From positions 372,001 through 436,000 of the forward strand of contig NZ_BLXX01000002.1 of NCBI RefSeq assembly GCF_014193515.1: a DNA stretch of 64,000 nucleotides, in the 5' to 3' direction. The stretch is from Geomonas silvestris (GTDB lineage Bacteria; Desulfobacterota; Desulfuromonadia; Geobacterales; Geobacteraceae). Within the stretch, counting starts at the first letter, position 1. Every line of letters starts with the position of its first letter. Under the pieces are notes generated by a model. That model was given only the letters and a program-made list of their open reading frames with translations, was not told the origin of the DNA and searched no databases. This document shows, piece by piece, positions 8,466-47,588 of the stretch. Position numbers and translations under genes: made by a program.

Positions 8466-8819
8466 TGATCCGGCTCTCCTTACATCTTCTTGCGGCGGCA
8501 CACTTTACGTCAACCTCACGGCCTTGGACAGCAAAATCTACCCAACATCGCGGCGTTGCCTACTTTCCTGAGCGCTGCCACAACGCGTGGTTATTAAGAA
8601 TCGACAACCGCCGGCGCACTTCGAGGGCCGCCGCACCGAAGCCCTCCCCTTCCGGTAGTATCGGCAAAACGCCGGGTATCTGTAGCGGTTGCCGTGCCGG
8701 GTTTTTGCCGATTTACATCGGCTTGGGAAATCCCCTAAGATTAATGGGGATCACGGTTCGCGGCCTCCCCGGCAGCTTCTCGAGGGAGGCCTGGGTCGTG
8801 GATGCACGAGGATCAGCAG
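8466..8819. other. gene-free stretch with one inverted repeat
   Basis: This is the divergent promoter region between the split kinase gene and the coiled-coil gene at 8820. The only structure I see is a perfect 9 bp inverted repeat, tcggcaaaa at 8661-8669 and ttttgccga at 8703-8711, enclosing smaller GC-rich dyads. It could be an operator or an RNA hairpin. No recognised riboswitch core was found. Confidence 0.45.
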
Positions 8820-9158
8820 ATGGCAAAAATACTCGAGTTCAAGAGAATCACGGCCAGACTGAAGGCCGAGCTTAAGCAGCACCCGGAATCCGACGACGCG
8901 ATCGACCGCATCGTCAACGACCCCTCCTTGCCTCCGGCACAGCGCCGCTGGTTGCTGGAAAACCTCTTGATGGACCTCGACGAGAAACTGCAGGAGTACA
9001 AGCACGAGCTGGAACTGGCGGAGAAGCGGCTGGAGCGCGTGGTAAGCGCTTCCCAGCGCCAGATCGAGGCGGCCTACGCCGAATACCTGGACCGGATCAC
9101 CAAGCTTACCGGTCAGGTGCATGACCTCACCCGGAACAAGGGACACCGGCGCGGGTGA
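8820..9158 (+). CDS. small coiled-coil protein of unknown function
   Basis: The 112-residue, highly charged, all-helical protein begins MAKILEFKRITARLKAEL. Long amphipathic heptad-like stretches (LLMDLDEKLQEYKHELELAEKRLERVV) predict a coiled coil over about residues 45-95. There is no membrane segment and no Cys. I prefer the ATG at 8820, preceded by GAGG at 8 bases, over an in-frame ATG 18 bases upstream. It is followed by the selenoprotein gene on the same strand after 200 bp. Confidence 0.65.
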   Translation: MAKILEFKRITARLKAELKQHPESDDAIDRIVNDPSLPPAQRRWLLENLLMDLDEKLQEYKHELELAEKRLERVVSASQRQIEAAYAEYLDRITKLTGQVHDLTRNKGHRRG

Positions 9159-9215: not shown

Positions 9216-9358
9216 GGCATGCCTCGGCACTGAGGGAAGGCTCGGGGTCGCGCCTTTTTCCGACCCTGCCGTGACTTCCTGTTTGCAGCGCCGGGCAATT
9301 GTGTTAGTAAGAAACCCGGAACTTCCTGTTGAGCCGGTCACCACACAAGGAGGCAGAG

Positions 9359-9610
9359 ATGAAAACACGGAAGAAGATCCTGGACTACGAATACGAGGAA
9401 GTACTGGAGACCAAGTACCGCGAACTGATCCGGGTCGGTTGCGCCGTGGCGGTAGGGTGTCCCACCTGACTCAAGAAACACTTCGCGGTCGCGAAGCAAG
9501 CCGGTGCCAGTGAGGCGGAACTCAGGGAAGCGATCGCCTACGGTATCATCGCCCCCTCCGGGAGGGCGAAGAACTTCGCCTTGGGGATGCAGGAAGAGCT
9601 TGGGTTATAA
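9359..9610 (+). CDS. AhpD-like (carboxymuconolactone decarboxylase fold) selenoprotein, CxxU
   Basis: Reading the in-frame TGA at 9467-9469 as selenocysteine gives an 83-residue protein. Its core, LIRVGCAVAVGCPT-U-LKKHFAVAKQAGAS, matches the CMD/AhpD redox motif CxxCxxxH, with the second Cys replaced by Sec37 (Cys34, Sec37, His41). The downstream half AELREAIAYGIIAPSGRAK continues the family pattern with no break. The ATG follows a perfect AGGAGG. A bSECIS-like hairpin lies just after the UGA, and selB is present at 45.7-47.6 kb. It is probably a small thiol/selenol peroxidase-type reductase; the substrate is unknown. Standard gene calling would miss it or split it. Confidence 0.88.
9467..9496 (+). 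promoter_or_regulatory. Sec UGA codon and bSECIS hairpin
   Basis: The UGA codon (9467-9469) is followed after exactly 11 bases by cttcgc-ggtc-gcgaag (9481-9496). This is a 6 bp stem with a GGTC loop that carries G in its first two positions. UGA-to-stem distance and loop G are the known hallmarks of bacterial SECIS elements recognised by SelB. Confidence 0.8.
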
Positions 9611-9636: not shown

Positions 9637-10983
9637 TTGAGAAAACGAATATCCCGGTCGGTGCGCAACAAGCGGGTCTCGATCCGGCGCAACGTCGCCG
9701 CCTTGTCGCTTCCCGTCTTGCTCTCCTCGCTGTTTCAGCGGCTGGTCTCCATCGTGGACATCTTCATGGTGGGGGGGCTCGGTGCCGCGGCGATCGCCGC
9801 CACCGGGGTGGGGCAGCTCCTCATCTTCGTGGTGATGACCGTCTTCTGGGGGCTCGCCACCGGCGCCACCGTGGTCATCGCCCACCTCTGGGGCGCCGGT
9901 CGGCGCAGCGAGGCGCGCCGCGCCGCCTTCGCCTCGTGCCTTTTGTGCGCGCTGCTCGCGGTGGCTGCGAGCCTCGCCGGGTACCGCTTCGGGGGGGAGC
10001 TCGCCCGCTTTCTCGGGGCGAGCCTCGAGGTGCGCGGTCAGGCGGGCGAGTACATACGGCTCGTGTTCCTCTATTTCGGCTGCACGGCAGGGCTCAACAT
10101 CCTCTCGGCCATCATGCAGGGGACCGGCAACACCAGGACCCCGATGCAGGGGGTGATCCTGGTCAACGTGCTGCACGTCCTGATCGCCTGGCCGCTCATC
10201 TACGGCCACCTGGGGCTCCCCAGGCTCGGGGTGGTGGGGGCCGCCTACGCCATCAACATCTCCGAGGCCGCGGGCTTTCTCTACCTGCTCGTCGAGGCGC
10301 TGCGCCGCAACTACCTGAGAATCGGCCCCCCCGACCTCGTCTTGTTGCGCAAGGTCTGGGACATCGGCTACCCGGTGGCACTCGAGCGCATCGCCCAGCA
10401 GTCCGGCCAGCTCTTCTACTCTAAGTTCATCATCGGTTTCGGCACGAGCGCCTATGCCGCGCACCAGATCGGCCTCTCCATCGAGTCGCTCTCCTTCATG
10501 CCGGGGGCGGGGATGGGGATCGCCGCGGCGACCCTGATGGGGCAGGCCCTGGGGGCCCGCAAGGTGAGGCGCGCCCGGATCAGCCACGCCGAGGCGCTGC
10601 GCCTGGCCCTTTTCGTCATGGCCAGCATGGCGCTTATCTTTCTCGTTGTCCCCCACCAGTTGATCGCCCTCTTCACCAGCGATCCCGAGGTGATCGAAAA
10701 GGGGAGCGTCTTTCTCAGGCTGGTCGCCTTCGCCCAGGTGCCGCTTGCGCTCTCCTTCGTCTACGCCGGCAGCCTGCGCGGCACCGGTGACACCCACTAC
10801 GTCTTCCTGGTGACCCTGGGCGCCATGTGGGGGATCCGGGTGCTCTTCTCCTGGATCGCCGCCTACCCCCTGAAGCTCTCCCTCTACCTGGTCTGGAGCG
10901 TCTTCGTCCTCGACTGGTTCGTGCGTGCCGCAGCCTTCGCCTGGCGCTACCACCGGCGCGACCTGCACAGCGTGGTGCTCTGA
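9637..10983 (+). CDS. MATE family multidrug/sodium antiporter
   Basis: The 448-residue protein has the MATE pattern of twelve helices in two halves: the N-half LSLPVLLSSLFQRLVSIVDIFMVGGLG and the C-half VWDIGYPVALERIAQQSGQL and AYAAHQIGLSIESLSFMPG. MATE proteins export cationic drugs or metabolites using Na+ or H+ gradients. The start is uncertain: TTG at 9637 after GAAAGG, or GTG at 9661. It lies 26 bp after the selenoprotein gene and is directly followed by a methyltransferase, so the three may form one transcript. Confidence 0.9.
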   Translation: MRKRISRSVRNKRVSIRRNVAALSLPVLLSSLFQRLVSIVDIFMVGGLGAAAIAATGVGQLLIFVVMTVFWGLATGATVVIAHLWGAGRRSEARRAAFASCLLCALLAVAASLAGYRFGGELARFLGASLEVRGQAGEYIRLVFLYFGCTAGLNILSAIMQGTGNTRTPMQGVILVNVLHVLIAWPLIYGHLGLPRLGVVGAAYAINISEAAGFLYLLVEALRRNYLRIGPPDLVLLRKVWDIGYPVALERIAQQSGQLFYSKFIIGFGTSAYAAHQIGLSIESLSFMPGAGMGIAAATLMGQALGARKVRRARISHAEALRLALFVMASMALIFLVVPHQLIALFTSDPEVIEKGSVFLRLVAFAQVPLALSFVYAGSLRGTGDTHYVFLVTLGAMWGIRVLFSWIAAYPLKLSLYLVWSVFVLDWFVRAAAFAWRYHRRDLHSVVL

Positions 10984-21513: not shown

Positions 21514-22179
21514 ATGAGGTATATTGGGTACGCACGTGTAAGCACCGCCCGCCAAGGGCGCTCTGGTTTGGGTTTGGAAAGCCAGGAAGCTGCGATAGCT
21601 GCTTATGTCTCAAGTATGGGCGGAGACCTCGAACAGCTCTATGTAGAGGTTGAAAGTGGGAAGCGTGACGATAGGCCGGAGTTGCGAGAAGCGATACAGC
21701 ACGCGCAACTGATCGGGGCGCGACTGGTAATCCACAAGCTTGACCGCCTTAGCCGTGATCTTGGCTTCATCACTACGCTTCAAAAGAATTTGGTCGATTT
21801 CGTAGTTACGGATCTTCCCGGTGCTGATCGTTTCACGGTGCAGCTCTTTGGCGCTTTGGCAGAGAAGGAGCGGTTTATGATTTCGGAGAGAACGCGACAA
21901 GCGTTGGCGGCAGCGAAGGCGCGGGGCGTTAAACTCGGCAATTCAAAGGGTGAGGGGTTCACTCCTGAAATCCAGAAAGCCGGAGCGGTAGCTGCAGCTG
22001 CGGCTCGAATAGAGAAGGCTGACACCTTTGCAGTGAGGGTAAAGCCGATGGCTGAAAAGCTAAAAGCTGAAGGGTTAAGCCTGCGGGGGATTGCAGCCAA
22101 GCTGAACGAAAAGGGTATCAAGACGCCACGCGGTAAACAGTGGACGGCTACGGCGGTAAAAAACGCCATGGAGAGGTAG
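21514..22179 (+). CDS. serine recombinase (resolvase/invertase family)
   Basis: The 221-residue small serine recombinase has the catalytic Ser in IGYARVSTARQG, the LVIHKLDRLSRD arginine block and the FGALAEKERFMISERTRQAL helix E region. A C-terminal helix-turn-helix (LRGIAAKLNEKGIKTPRGKQWTATAVKN) completes it. It could resolve multimers of the excised circle or invert a segment; no inverted target sites were noticed. The ATG follows ACGGAGG, and a consensus promoter with an operator lies 43 bp upstream. Confidence 0.93.
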   Translation: MRYIGYARVSTARQGRSGLGLESQEAAIAAYVSSMGGDLEQLYVEVESGKRDDRPELREAIQHAQLIGARLVIHKLDRLSRDLGFITTLQKNLVDFVVTDLPGADRFTVQLFGALAEKERFMISERTRQALAAAKARGVKLGNSKGEGFTPEIQKAGAVAAAAARIEKADTFAVRVKPMAEKLKAEGLSLRGIAAKLNEKGIKTPRGKQWTATAVKNAMER

Positions 22180-45677: not shown

Positions 45678-47588
45678 CTACCCCCTCCTGAGCACGCGCT
45701 TGTCGCCCATGCGGATGGTGAGCTTCTCCTGGTCGAAGAATTCCAGCAAAGGAATCATGAACTTGCGGGACAGGCCGGTTATCTCCCGGAACTCGGGAGG
45801 GGTGATCTCGCCCTTCTCTTTGAGGTAGGCGGTGAGTTTTTCGCGCAACTCCTGGAGCGCTCCCGGCGCGTAGAAGATGTCGCTCTTGACCTTGGCCGCC
45901 CTCCCCTCGCGCACCAGGAGGTTCGCGTGGTCGAGGAGCTGCTTCTCGGTGCACCCCAGCTGGTCGCAGAGCTCCTTCTGGGTCGGGGGTTCCAGCCACC
46001 CCTTCTTGAGGATCTCCTCCAACTTTGCCTGCACCCCCGCCTGGTCCACGGTGACCCCGACCTTGCGCCCGGGGAGCTTCACGATGTCGCGCTCGGACTG
46101 GGCGGAGCCGTCCTTCTCCATGCTGGCCAAAAGCGGGCCGAAGAAGCGCGGGTCGCTACGTCTGGGGACGCGCGACTTGAGCTCCTCCTTGCCGATACCC
46201 TCCTGCATCGGGTTGTCGTTCAAGTAGCTCACCAGCTCGTCGGAGAGCTTCTGTTTCAGCGCGGCGAAGGCCTGCTTCCCGAGGAAGATGCGCGGCTCCT
46301 TCACCACCTGGAGCACGGCCCCGGAGGAGAGCAGGGGGCCTAGCGCCGCATCGATCTTCTTCGTGGACATGCCGGATCTGTTCACCAGCTCCTCGAGGGA
46401 GAGACCCGAGAAGAGCGAGGACTCCACCATGAGGCGGATCCGCTCCTGGTCGGTCCCCTCTTCCGCCGCGGCCAACAGCTCGAGTGCCTCGGAGCTCCGC
46501 CTCCTGCGGCGCGGGGGGCCCGGGTCCAGCACCGTGCCGCCCCCCAGGGTCGCCTGGGGAGAGTAGGTGCGCACCACGAAGGGGTCGCCCGGCAAGAGGA
46601 GCACCGGGTGGGCAAGCCTTAGCTGCGCGAAGCAGCTCTCGCCGGGCTTCAGGAGGTCGCGGTCGAAGAGGATCACCTGTGCCGGCACCTCGTAGGTCGC
46701 CGAATGCAGCCTCAGGGTGGCCCGGTGTTTCAGGTCCTTGGGTGCCGAAGCGAGGTAGTCGAGCCTGACGTCCACGGCGCGGGTGGGGCGGTAGAGCCCC
46801 TTGGGGACCACCACGTCGCCGCGCTGAACCTCGCTGTGGTCCACCCCCTGCAGGTTCACCGCGAGCCGCTCGCCGGCACCGCCGCGCTCCACCTTGGAGC
46901 CGAAGGACTGCACCCCGCGCACCCGGCAGGCCTTCCCCGCCGGCAGCACCTCAACCTCGTCCCCCACCGCAACCGAGCCGGCGAGGAGCGTCCCGGTGAC
47001 CACCGTGCCGAAACCGGTCACCGTGAAGACCCGGTCCACGGGGAGGCGGAACGGGGCATCCACGCGCTTTTGCTCGATGAGCCCGGCCATCCGGACGAGC
47101 TCCTCTTTGAGGACCGGGATGCCGTCGCCGGTTCGCGAGGAGACGGCCACGATCGGGGCTTCGGCCAGAAAGCTGCCGGCGAGATAGTCGCGGACCTCCT
47201 CGGTCACCAGGTCGAGCCAGTCCGGGTCCACCATGTCCTTCTTGGTGAGCACCACGATGCCGCGCTTCACCCCCAAAAGCGAGCAGATCTCCAAGTGTTC
47301 GCGGGTCTGGGGCATGATCCCTTCGTCGGCTGCGACCACCAGGAGCACCAGGTCCATGCCGCCCACCCCGGCCACCATGGTGCGCACGAAGCGCTCGTGG
47401 CCGGGGACGTCGACGATGCCGAAGCGCACGTCGCCGGGGAGCTCCAGGTGCGCGAAGCCGAGCTCGATGGTGATGCCGCGCGCCTTCTCTTCCTTGAGAC
47501 GGTCGGTGTCGATGCCGGTGAGGACCTTGACCAGCGAGGTCTTGCCGTGGTCGATGTGGCCGGCGGTGCCGAGGATGAGGTGTTTCAT
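45678..47588 (-). CDS. selB: selenocysteine-specific elongation factor SelB
   Basis: This 636-residue translational GTPase brings Sec-tRNA to UGA codons marked by a SECIS hairpin. The G-domain ([27 protein letters not shown]) is of the SelB rather than EF-Tu type. EF-Tu-like domains 2 and 3 follow, then a C-terminal ~260 residues of winged-helix repeats that bind SECIS RNA. The start follows AGGAG. Its presence shows that the organism uses selenocysteine and supports the selenoprotein call at 9359. selA, selC and selD are not in the window. Confidence 0.96.

Follow-up and report, generated by a model that had tools for sequence, protein, structure and literature searches.

The locus considered here raises the question of whether an in-frame TGA in a short reading frame of Geomonas silvestris is read as selenocysteine (Sec) or as a stop, and of what the full-length product would do. 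The frame lies in a 64,000-nucleotide stretch of contig NZ_BLXX01000002.1, which is referred to as the window, and positions are those of the window unless indicated. The original prediction, made from the letters of the sequence, was an AhpD-like selenoprotein with a matching bSECIS hairpin. The features concerned are the following:

9348-9353, forward strand: Shine-Dalgarno sequence AGGAGG, read from the sequence, 5 nucleotides 5' of the ATG.
9359-9610, forward strand: predicted selenoprotein gene of family NF041047 (GSU3128 family), 83 residues, Sec37.
9467-9469, forward strand: in-frame UGA, predicted Sec37; the TGA is kept in 98 of the 98 core genes, that of the window included.
9481-9496, forward strand: bSECIS hairpin CTTCGC-GGTC-GCGAAG; the loop begins 17 nucleotides after the UGA, the six pairs are conserved, and the overlapping codons are synonymously locked.
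9637-10983, forward strand: MATE-family transporter gene (PF01554, E 5e-63), directly downstream of the selenoprotein gene.
45678-47588, reverse strand: selB, the Sec-specific elongation factor (TIGR00475, 382.7 bits), with SelB winged-helix domains.

The gene begins with the ATG at 9359-9361 and ends with the TAA at 9608-9610. The original prediction placed an AGGAGG, an ATG, an 83-codon frame with a single in-frame TGA, and a TAA here, and its coordinates agree with the sequence. When the TGA is translated as Sec, the product contains the motif C34-P-T-U37-L-K-K-H41 (CPTULKKH). Sec occupies the position of the second Cys of CxxCxxxH, as had been proposed.

Relatives of the gene were sought with the NF041047 profile in 141 genomes of the order. 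The profile matched 119 of these at E ≤ 0.001 and 91 above its cut-off, and all 91 of the latter carry one TGA. A 395-genome sample of the phylum gave 16 matches above the cut-off, each with one TGA (16/16), and seven weaker matches (E ≤ 1e-12), of which five have the TGA and two have no stop. In total, 103 genes were extracted (92 with a first motif pattern, the remaining 11 with a looser one): 91 from the order, including that of the window, seven more from the class, and five weaker TGA genes. The 91 and the seven make up the core set of 98 distinct coding sequences, one per assembly. A GGAG, GAGG, or AGGA core close to the start (within the 18 bases before it) is present in 91 of the 98, the window's gene among them. 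Five divergent relatives (L070-L074) are 85-98 residues long and score 66-71 bits, under the NF041047 cut-off. They have a CxxU motif (CSHU, CAHU, or CPTU) and the same hairpin.

The window protein matches NF041047, the 'GSU3128 family (seleno)protein' model used by NCBI to name such genes, with 157.2 bits against a cut-off of 110 (E 8e-47). Residues 1-82 align with positions 1-83 of the 84 in the model. The CxxU motif of the family is found in 98 of the 98 core genes, the window's included, and with a match over the whole length there is no difference of substance between the protein and the family. The gene is an orthologue of, and 98% identical to, locus L137 of Geomonas limicola.

This family has a published history. 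A survey from 2005 lists a 4-carboxymuconolactone-decarboxylase-like prediction in G. sulfurreducens (PMC1242214), an entry that we infer to be the GSU3128-family gene. In a 2006 survey, G. sulfurreducens and 'G. uraniumreducens' are listed with a 'distant AhpD homolog', to which one Cys-to-Sec event is assigned (PMC1794560). The family entry is given as CxxU in a 2022 review (PMC9312934), and a 2026 review ties the 'distant AhpD homolog' to NF041047, also as CxxU (PMC13188914). No paper naming GSU3128 was found in the literature searched. As its family already has a name and a place in the literature, the window gene is counted as a member of a known family in Geobacter and relatives, rather ordinary and of low novelty. 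AhpD-like 1 and AhpD-like 2, from marine metagenomes (PMC2398784), are likewise AhpD-type selenoproteins with CxxU; they are listed under COG2128 and pfam02627 and are kept apart from NF041047 in the 2026 review (PMC13188914).

A second model (A1) was built from TGA-bearing rows, and a search with it leans toward such genes. In the 395 phylum genomes, 21 of its 21 matches over 100 bits carry the TGA, and no close Cys orthologue over 100 bits was found with this TGA-leaning model.

The window protein belongs to the AhpD/carboxymuconolactone decarboxylase superfamily (PF02627, E 6e-13, 49.1 bits against a gathering score of 23). It has in common with the superfamily the helical fold, the CxxCxxxH motif, and a Glu at -12. 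It differs in having Sec for the second Cys, a length of only 83 residues, and a short N-terminal beta hairpin. A structure model made from the 41-row alignment A1, with Cys substituted for Sec, has a pLDDT of 94.5 and a pTM of 0.84. In this model, the beta hairpin is followed by four helices, and residue 37 is near the start of the helix formed by residues 35-47. Foldseek ranks 1-36 are all structures of the CMD/AhpD type, with 3bey first (E 5.7e-3, probability 1.00) and 2af7_H matching with a TM of 0.72 at 1.8 Å; no match had E ≤ 0.001, the best being the 5.7e-3 of 3bey. The original prediction expected Cys homologues to align at residue 37, and Cys does align there in two Cys-type PDB sequences, 3bey and RclX (7y4r).

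All 98 core genes encode Glu22, Cys34, Sec37, and His41. The spacing of these four residues, Glu-12-Cys-3-Sec-4-His, is that of the relay residues of PA0269, Glu36/Cys48/Cys51/His55 (PMC3141380). The relay of classical AhpD is composed of Glu118, Cys130, His132, Cys133, and His137 (PMC3141380). The window protein differs from it at the fifth relay residue, with Thr36 at the position of His132. Most core genes (92 of 98) have Thr or Asp at this position, and three of the five divergent relatives have His. Membership in classical AhpD (TIGR00777) was rejected on account of Thr36, and TIGR00777 is absent from the 11 NCBIfam matches of the window protein.

These features suggest how the gene would be decoded and used. 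SelB with tRNA-Sec would bind the hairpin at 9481-9496 and recode the UGA at 9467 as Sec, a step for which the support is conservation. Sec37, near its helix start, would take the place of the second active-site Cys of AhpD, which in that enzyme is the peroxidatic one. By analogy with AhpD, Cys34 would resolve Sec37 through a selenenylsulfide, Glu22 and His41 would act as a proton relay, and the protein would reduce a hydroperoxide or exchange a disulfide. We infer an enzymatic role as a selenol oxidoreductase, and the analogy with AhpD moderately favors a role of the peroxidase type.

A possible, though somewhat doubtful, alternative is that the protein is not a peroxidase and serves instead in selenol/thiol-disulfide exchange or as a redox-sensing partner, for example one linked to the adjacent MATE transporter. 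Consistent with this, the protein lacks the relay residue His132 of AhpD, and in 41 of the 98 loci, the window's included, the next gene downstream, on the same strand, is a MATE gene; a few loci whose downstream flanks are short (L127, L098, and L085, for example) could have been missed in this count. The same count also argues against it, since the MATE gene is present in these 41 loci only, and seven of 12 loci listed are without MATE and have other neighbors in its place. By eye, some of the non-MATE neighbors among the 12 are GlnE-like and some are protoporphyrinogen oxidase-like. With MATE in 41 of 98 loci and other neighbors elsewhere, the gene has no universal partner.

Upstream of the gene, a 118-residue protein (8802-9158) is encoded near it in 15 of the 98 loci, that of the window included; this protein has no Pfam match. 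A conserved operon partner was dropped as a clue to function, neither the MATE gene nor the 118-residue protein being universal. Elsewhere in the window, the segment 18432-22179 resembles an element that has integrated at a tRNA gene: after a tRNA-Ala come an integrase of the phage type (18596-20260) and a recombinase of the resolvase family (21514-22179).

The TGA is at the same codon in all 98 core genes, and a conserved frame continues beyond it in each, so that the similarity past residue 37 on which the original prediction depended is present. The genes were also retrieved a second time using patterns independent of the UGA. Of 119 matches the best 80 were kept, and the TGA is present in 80 of 80; the genomes are mostly those of the first retrieval, with 16 of the 80 new. 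Downstream of the TGA, H41, A43, A45, and K46 are invariant across the core genes.

The hairpin is composed of CTTCGC (9481-9486), a GGTC loop (9487-9490), and GCGAAG (9491-9496), giving a stem of 6 bp. It is separated from the UGA by 11 nucleotides (9470-9480). Both the spacing and the hairpin, with its loop G, are exactly as first described. A bSECIS element is expected to have a loop of 3-9 nucleotides, an upper stem of 4-16 bp, and a G in the first two loop positions, with 16-37 nucleotides from UGA to loop and an MFE ≤ -7.5 (PMC13188914). The window element, with its GGTC loop, 6-bp stem, and 17 nucleotides from UGA to loop, is within these constraints, and the 42 nucleotides after the UGA fold with -8.2 kcal/mol, within the energy limit. 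The bSECIS reading of the original prediction is supported by this and by the conservation of the hairpin in relatives.

Taken alone, the window hairpin would not stand out from chance. Its 60-nucleotide single-sequence fold has a z of -0.46, which is not significant, as 57 of 200 shuffles fold as well. Single-sequence folding was dropped as SECIS evidence for this reason, and conservation was used in its place. An Rfam scan of the window at gathering scores returned a tRNA and nothing else. Comparable hairpins, defined as having at least 6 bp, a loop G, and the right distance from a TGA, are found downstream of 55 of the 1590 TGA triplets counted on both strands and in all frames of the window. 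Three of these 55 TGAs, that of the window gene among them, have 30 open codons of their frame on either side.

With the relatives included, the sequences point overwhelmingly to a hairpin beyond chance. All six pairs can form (G-T allowed) in 94 of the 98 core genes, and the outermost pair is C-G in 93, T-A in three, and T-G in two. Across the hairpin, codons 41-46 (HFAVAK) hardly vary at synonymous sites, in contrast to the rest of the gene. TTC encodes Phe42 in 94 of 94 genes, compared with 42 of 98 for Phe73 (Fisher p 7e-22, a value that is too strong, kin genes having been taken as independent). Ala45 is GCG in 94 of 98, compared with 240 of 1008 for the other Ala codons, 43 and 45 excluded (Fisher p 5e-48, overstated in the same way). 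Lys46 is AAG in 95 of the 98.

The machinery for Sec insertion is present in the genome. The selB gene reported in the window by the original prediction was located by its TIGR00475 match at 45684-47576 on the minus strand (C2:417684-419576), with a score well over the cut-off of 242.25. The further expectation of selC and selD in the genome also held, and selA is present as well. The selC gene (tRNA-Sec) scores 78 bits against a cut-off of 47, in agreement with ARAGORN, selD (L022, C11:84133-85047) scores 366 bits, and selA scores 604 bits. The selD gene itself contains one in-frame TGA, and SelD of this genome is for that reason probably a selenoprotein too.

Across the order, the gene is above the cut-off in 84 of the 122 genomes with a selB match (E ≤ 1e-60) and in seven of the 19 without (p 0.01), in a selB search that scored at most eight candidates per genome and was repeated for the seven only. 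On the repeated search, none of the seven had selB above the cut-off. Five of the seven are 52-85% complete. Among the seven, selB is in split pieces in G049 and gives partial matches in G048 and G022, tRNA-Sec is above the cut-off in three, and selA is present in five. G081 (96% complete) and G091 (99% complete) have no selA match, no selB above the cut-off, and no tRNA-Sec above the cut-off in a first look that scored 150 of 332 and 150 of 373 candidates, respectively. Their TGA genes (L113 in G081 and L107 in G091) and hairpins are intact. Either these genomes have recently lost the trait and the gene survives as a remnant, or the three missing genes escaped the assemblies or the searches. 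Seven other genomes (G023, G043, G053, G107, G114, G116, and G117) have two selB matches each (E ≤ 1e-60).

From these comparisons, the window gene is very probably a genuine small selenoprotein in which the UGA is read through as Sec. That the TGA is a true stop, with a coincidental or decaying frame downstream and a 36-residue peptide as the product, is highly improbable. The comparable hairpins after 55 of the 1590 window TGAs and the two related near-complete genomes that retain the TGA gene, seemingly without Sec machinery, are in line with such a stop; against it are the TGA kept in 98 of 98 genes, the conserved frame beyond it, the synonymous lock over the hairpin, and the presence of selA, selB, selC, and selD in the window's genome. 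A sequencing error or assembly artefact has a negligible probability, found no support, and is refuted by the occurrence of the TGA in 98 distinct coding sequences from 98 assemblies.

The four core genes without the old stem (L089, L090, L098, and L106) are all in genus g27. In these four, a new stem can form three bases, or one codon, further downstream. Its length is 6 bp in three of the loci and 8 bp in L106, the loop is GGCA, and the energies of the new hairpins are -9.6 and -13.2 kcal/mol. At offsets 17 and 32 from the UGA, the new stem pairs C with G in L089 and A with T in L106. The other seven of the 11 g27 loci have the old 6-bp stem with a CCTG, CTTG, or TCTG loop, which, contrary to the bSECIS rule, is without G in the first two places. 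In one of them, L039, 4 bp of the new stem can form as well. The two loci with G-less loops that were folded freely, L039 and L046, favor another pairing. In all 92 loci from outside g27 (87 core and five divergent), the old stem is present, its loop has a G within the first two bases, and no more than 1 bp of the new stem can form.

The loss of the G from the loop start in g27 would result from the change of Val44 to Leu together with that of Ala43 from GCG to GCC. A gene tree was constructed from 24 sequences and 150 columns, with the hairpin codons left out. The 11 g27 loci group together in it (96/98), and this tree of 24 sequences does not settle the order and number of hairpin shifts. 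The word 'shift' was not found in the portions of PMC13188914 covered, and the shift is not claimed here as unpublished. It is proposed, tentatively and with slightly more doubt than confidence, that the GSU3128 family is obligately Sec-containing in the phylum and that the g27 SECIS has moved one codon downstream.

The evidence points to a recoded gene, which would be cut at the UGA in a standard reading and which belongs to a small redox family of which all high-scoring members examined retain Sec. If the proposal for g27 is true, this genus would provide a natural series in which the RNA target of SelB is re-made inside a constrained protein. Its re-registered hairpins would be natural variants for testing which loop and stem features SelB needs.
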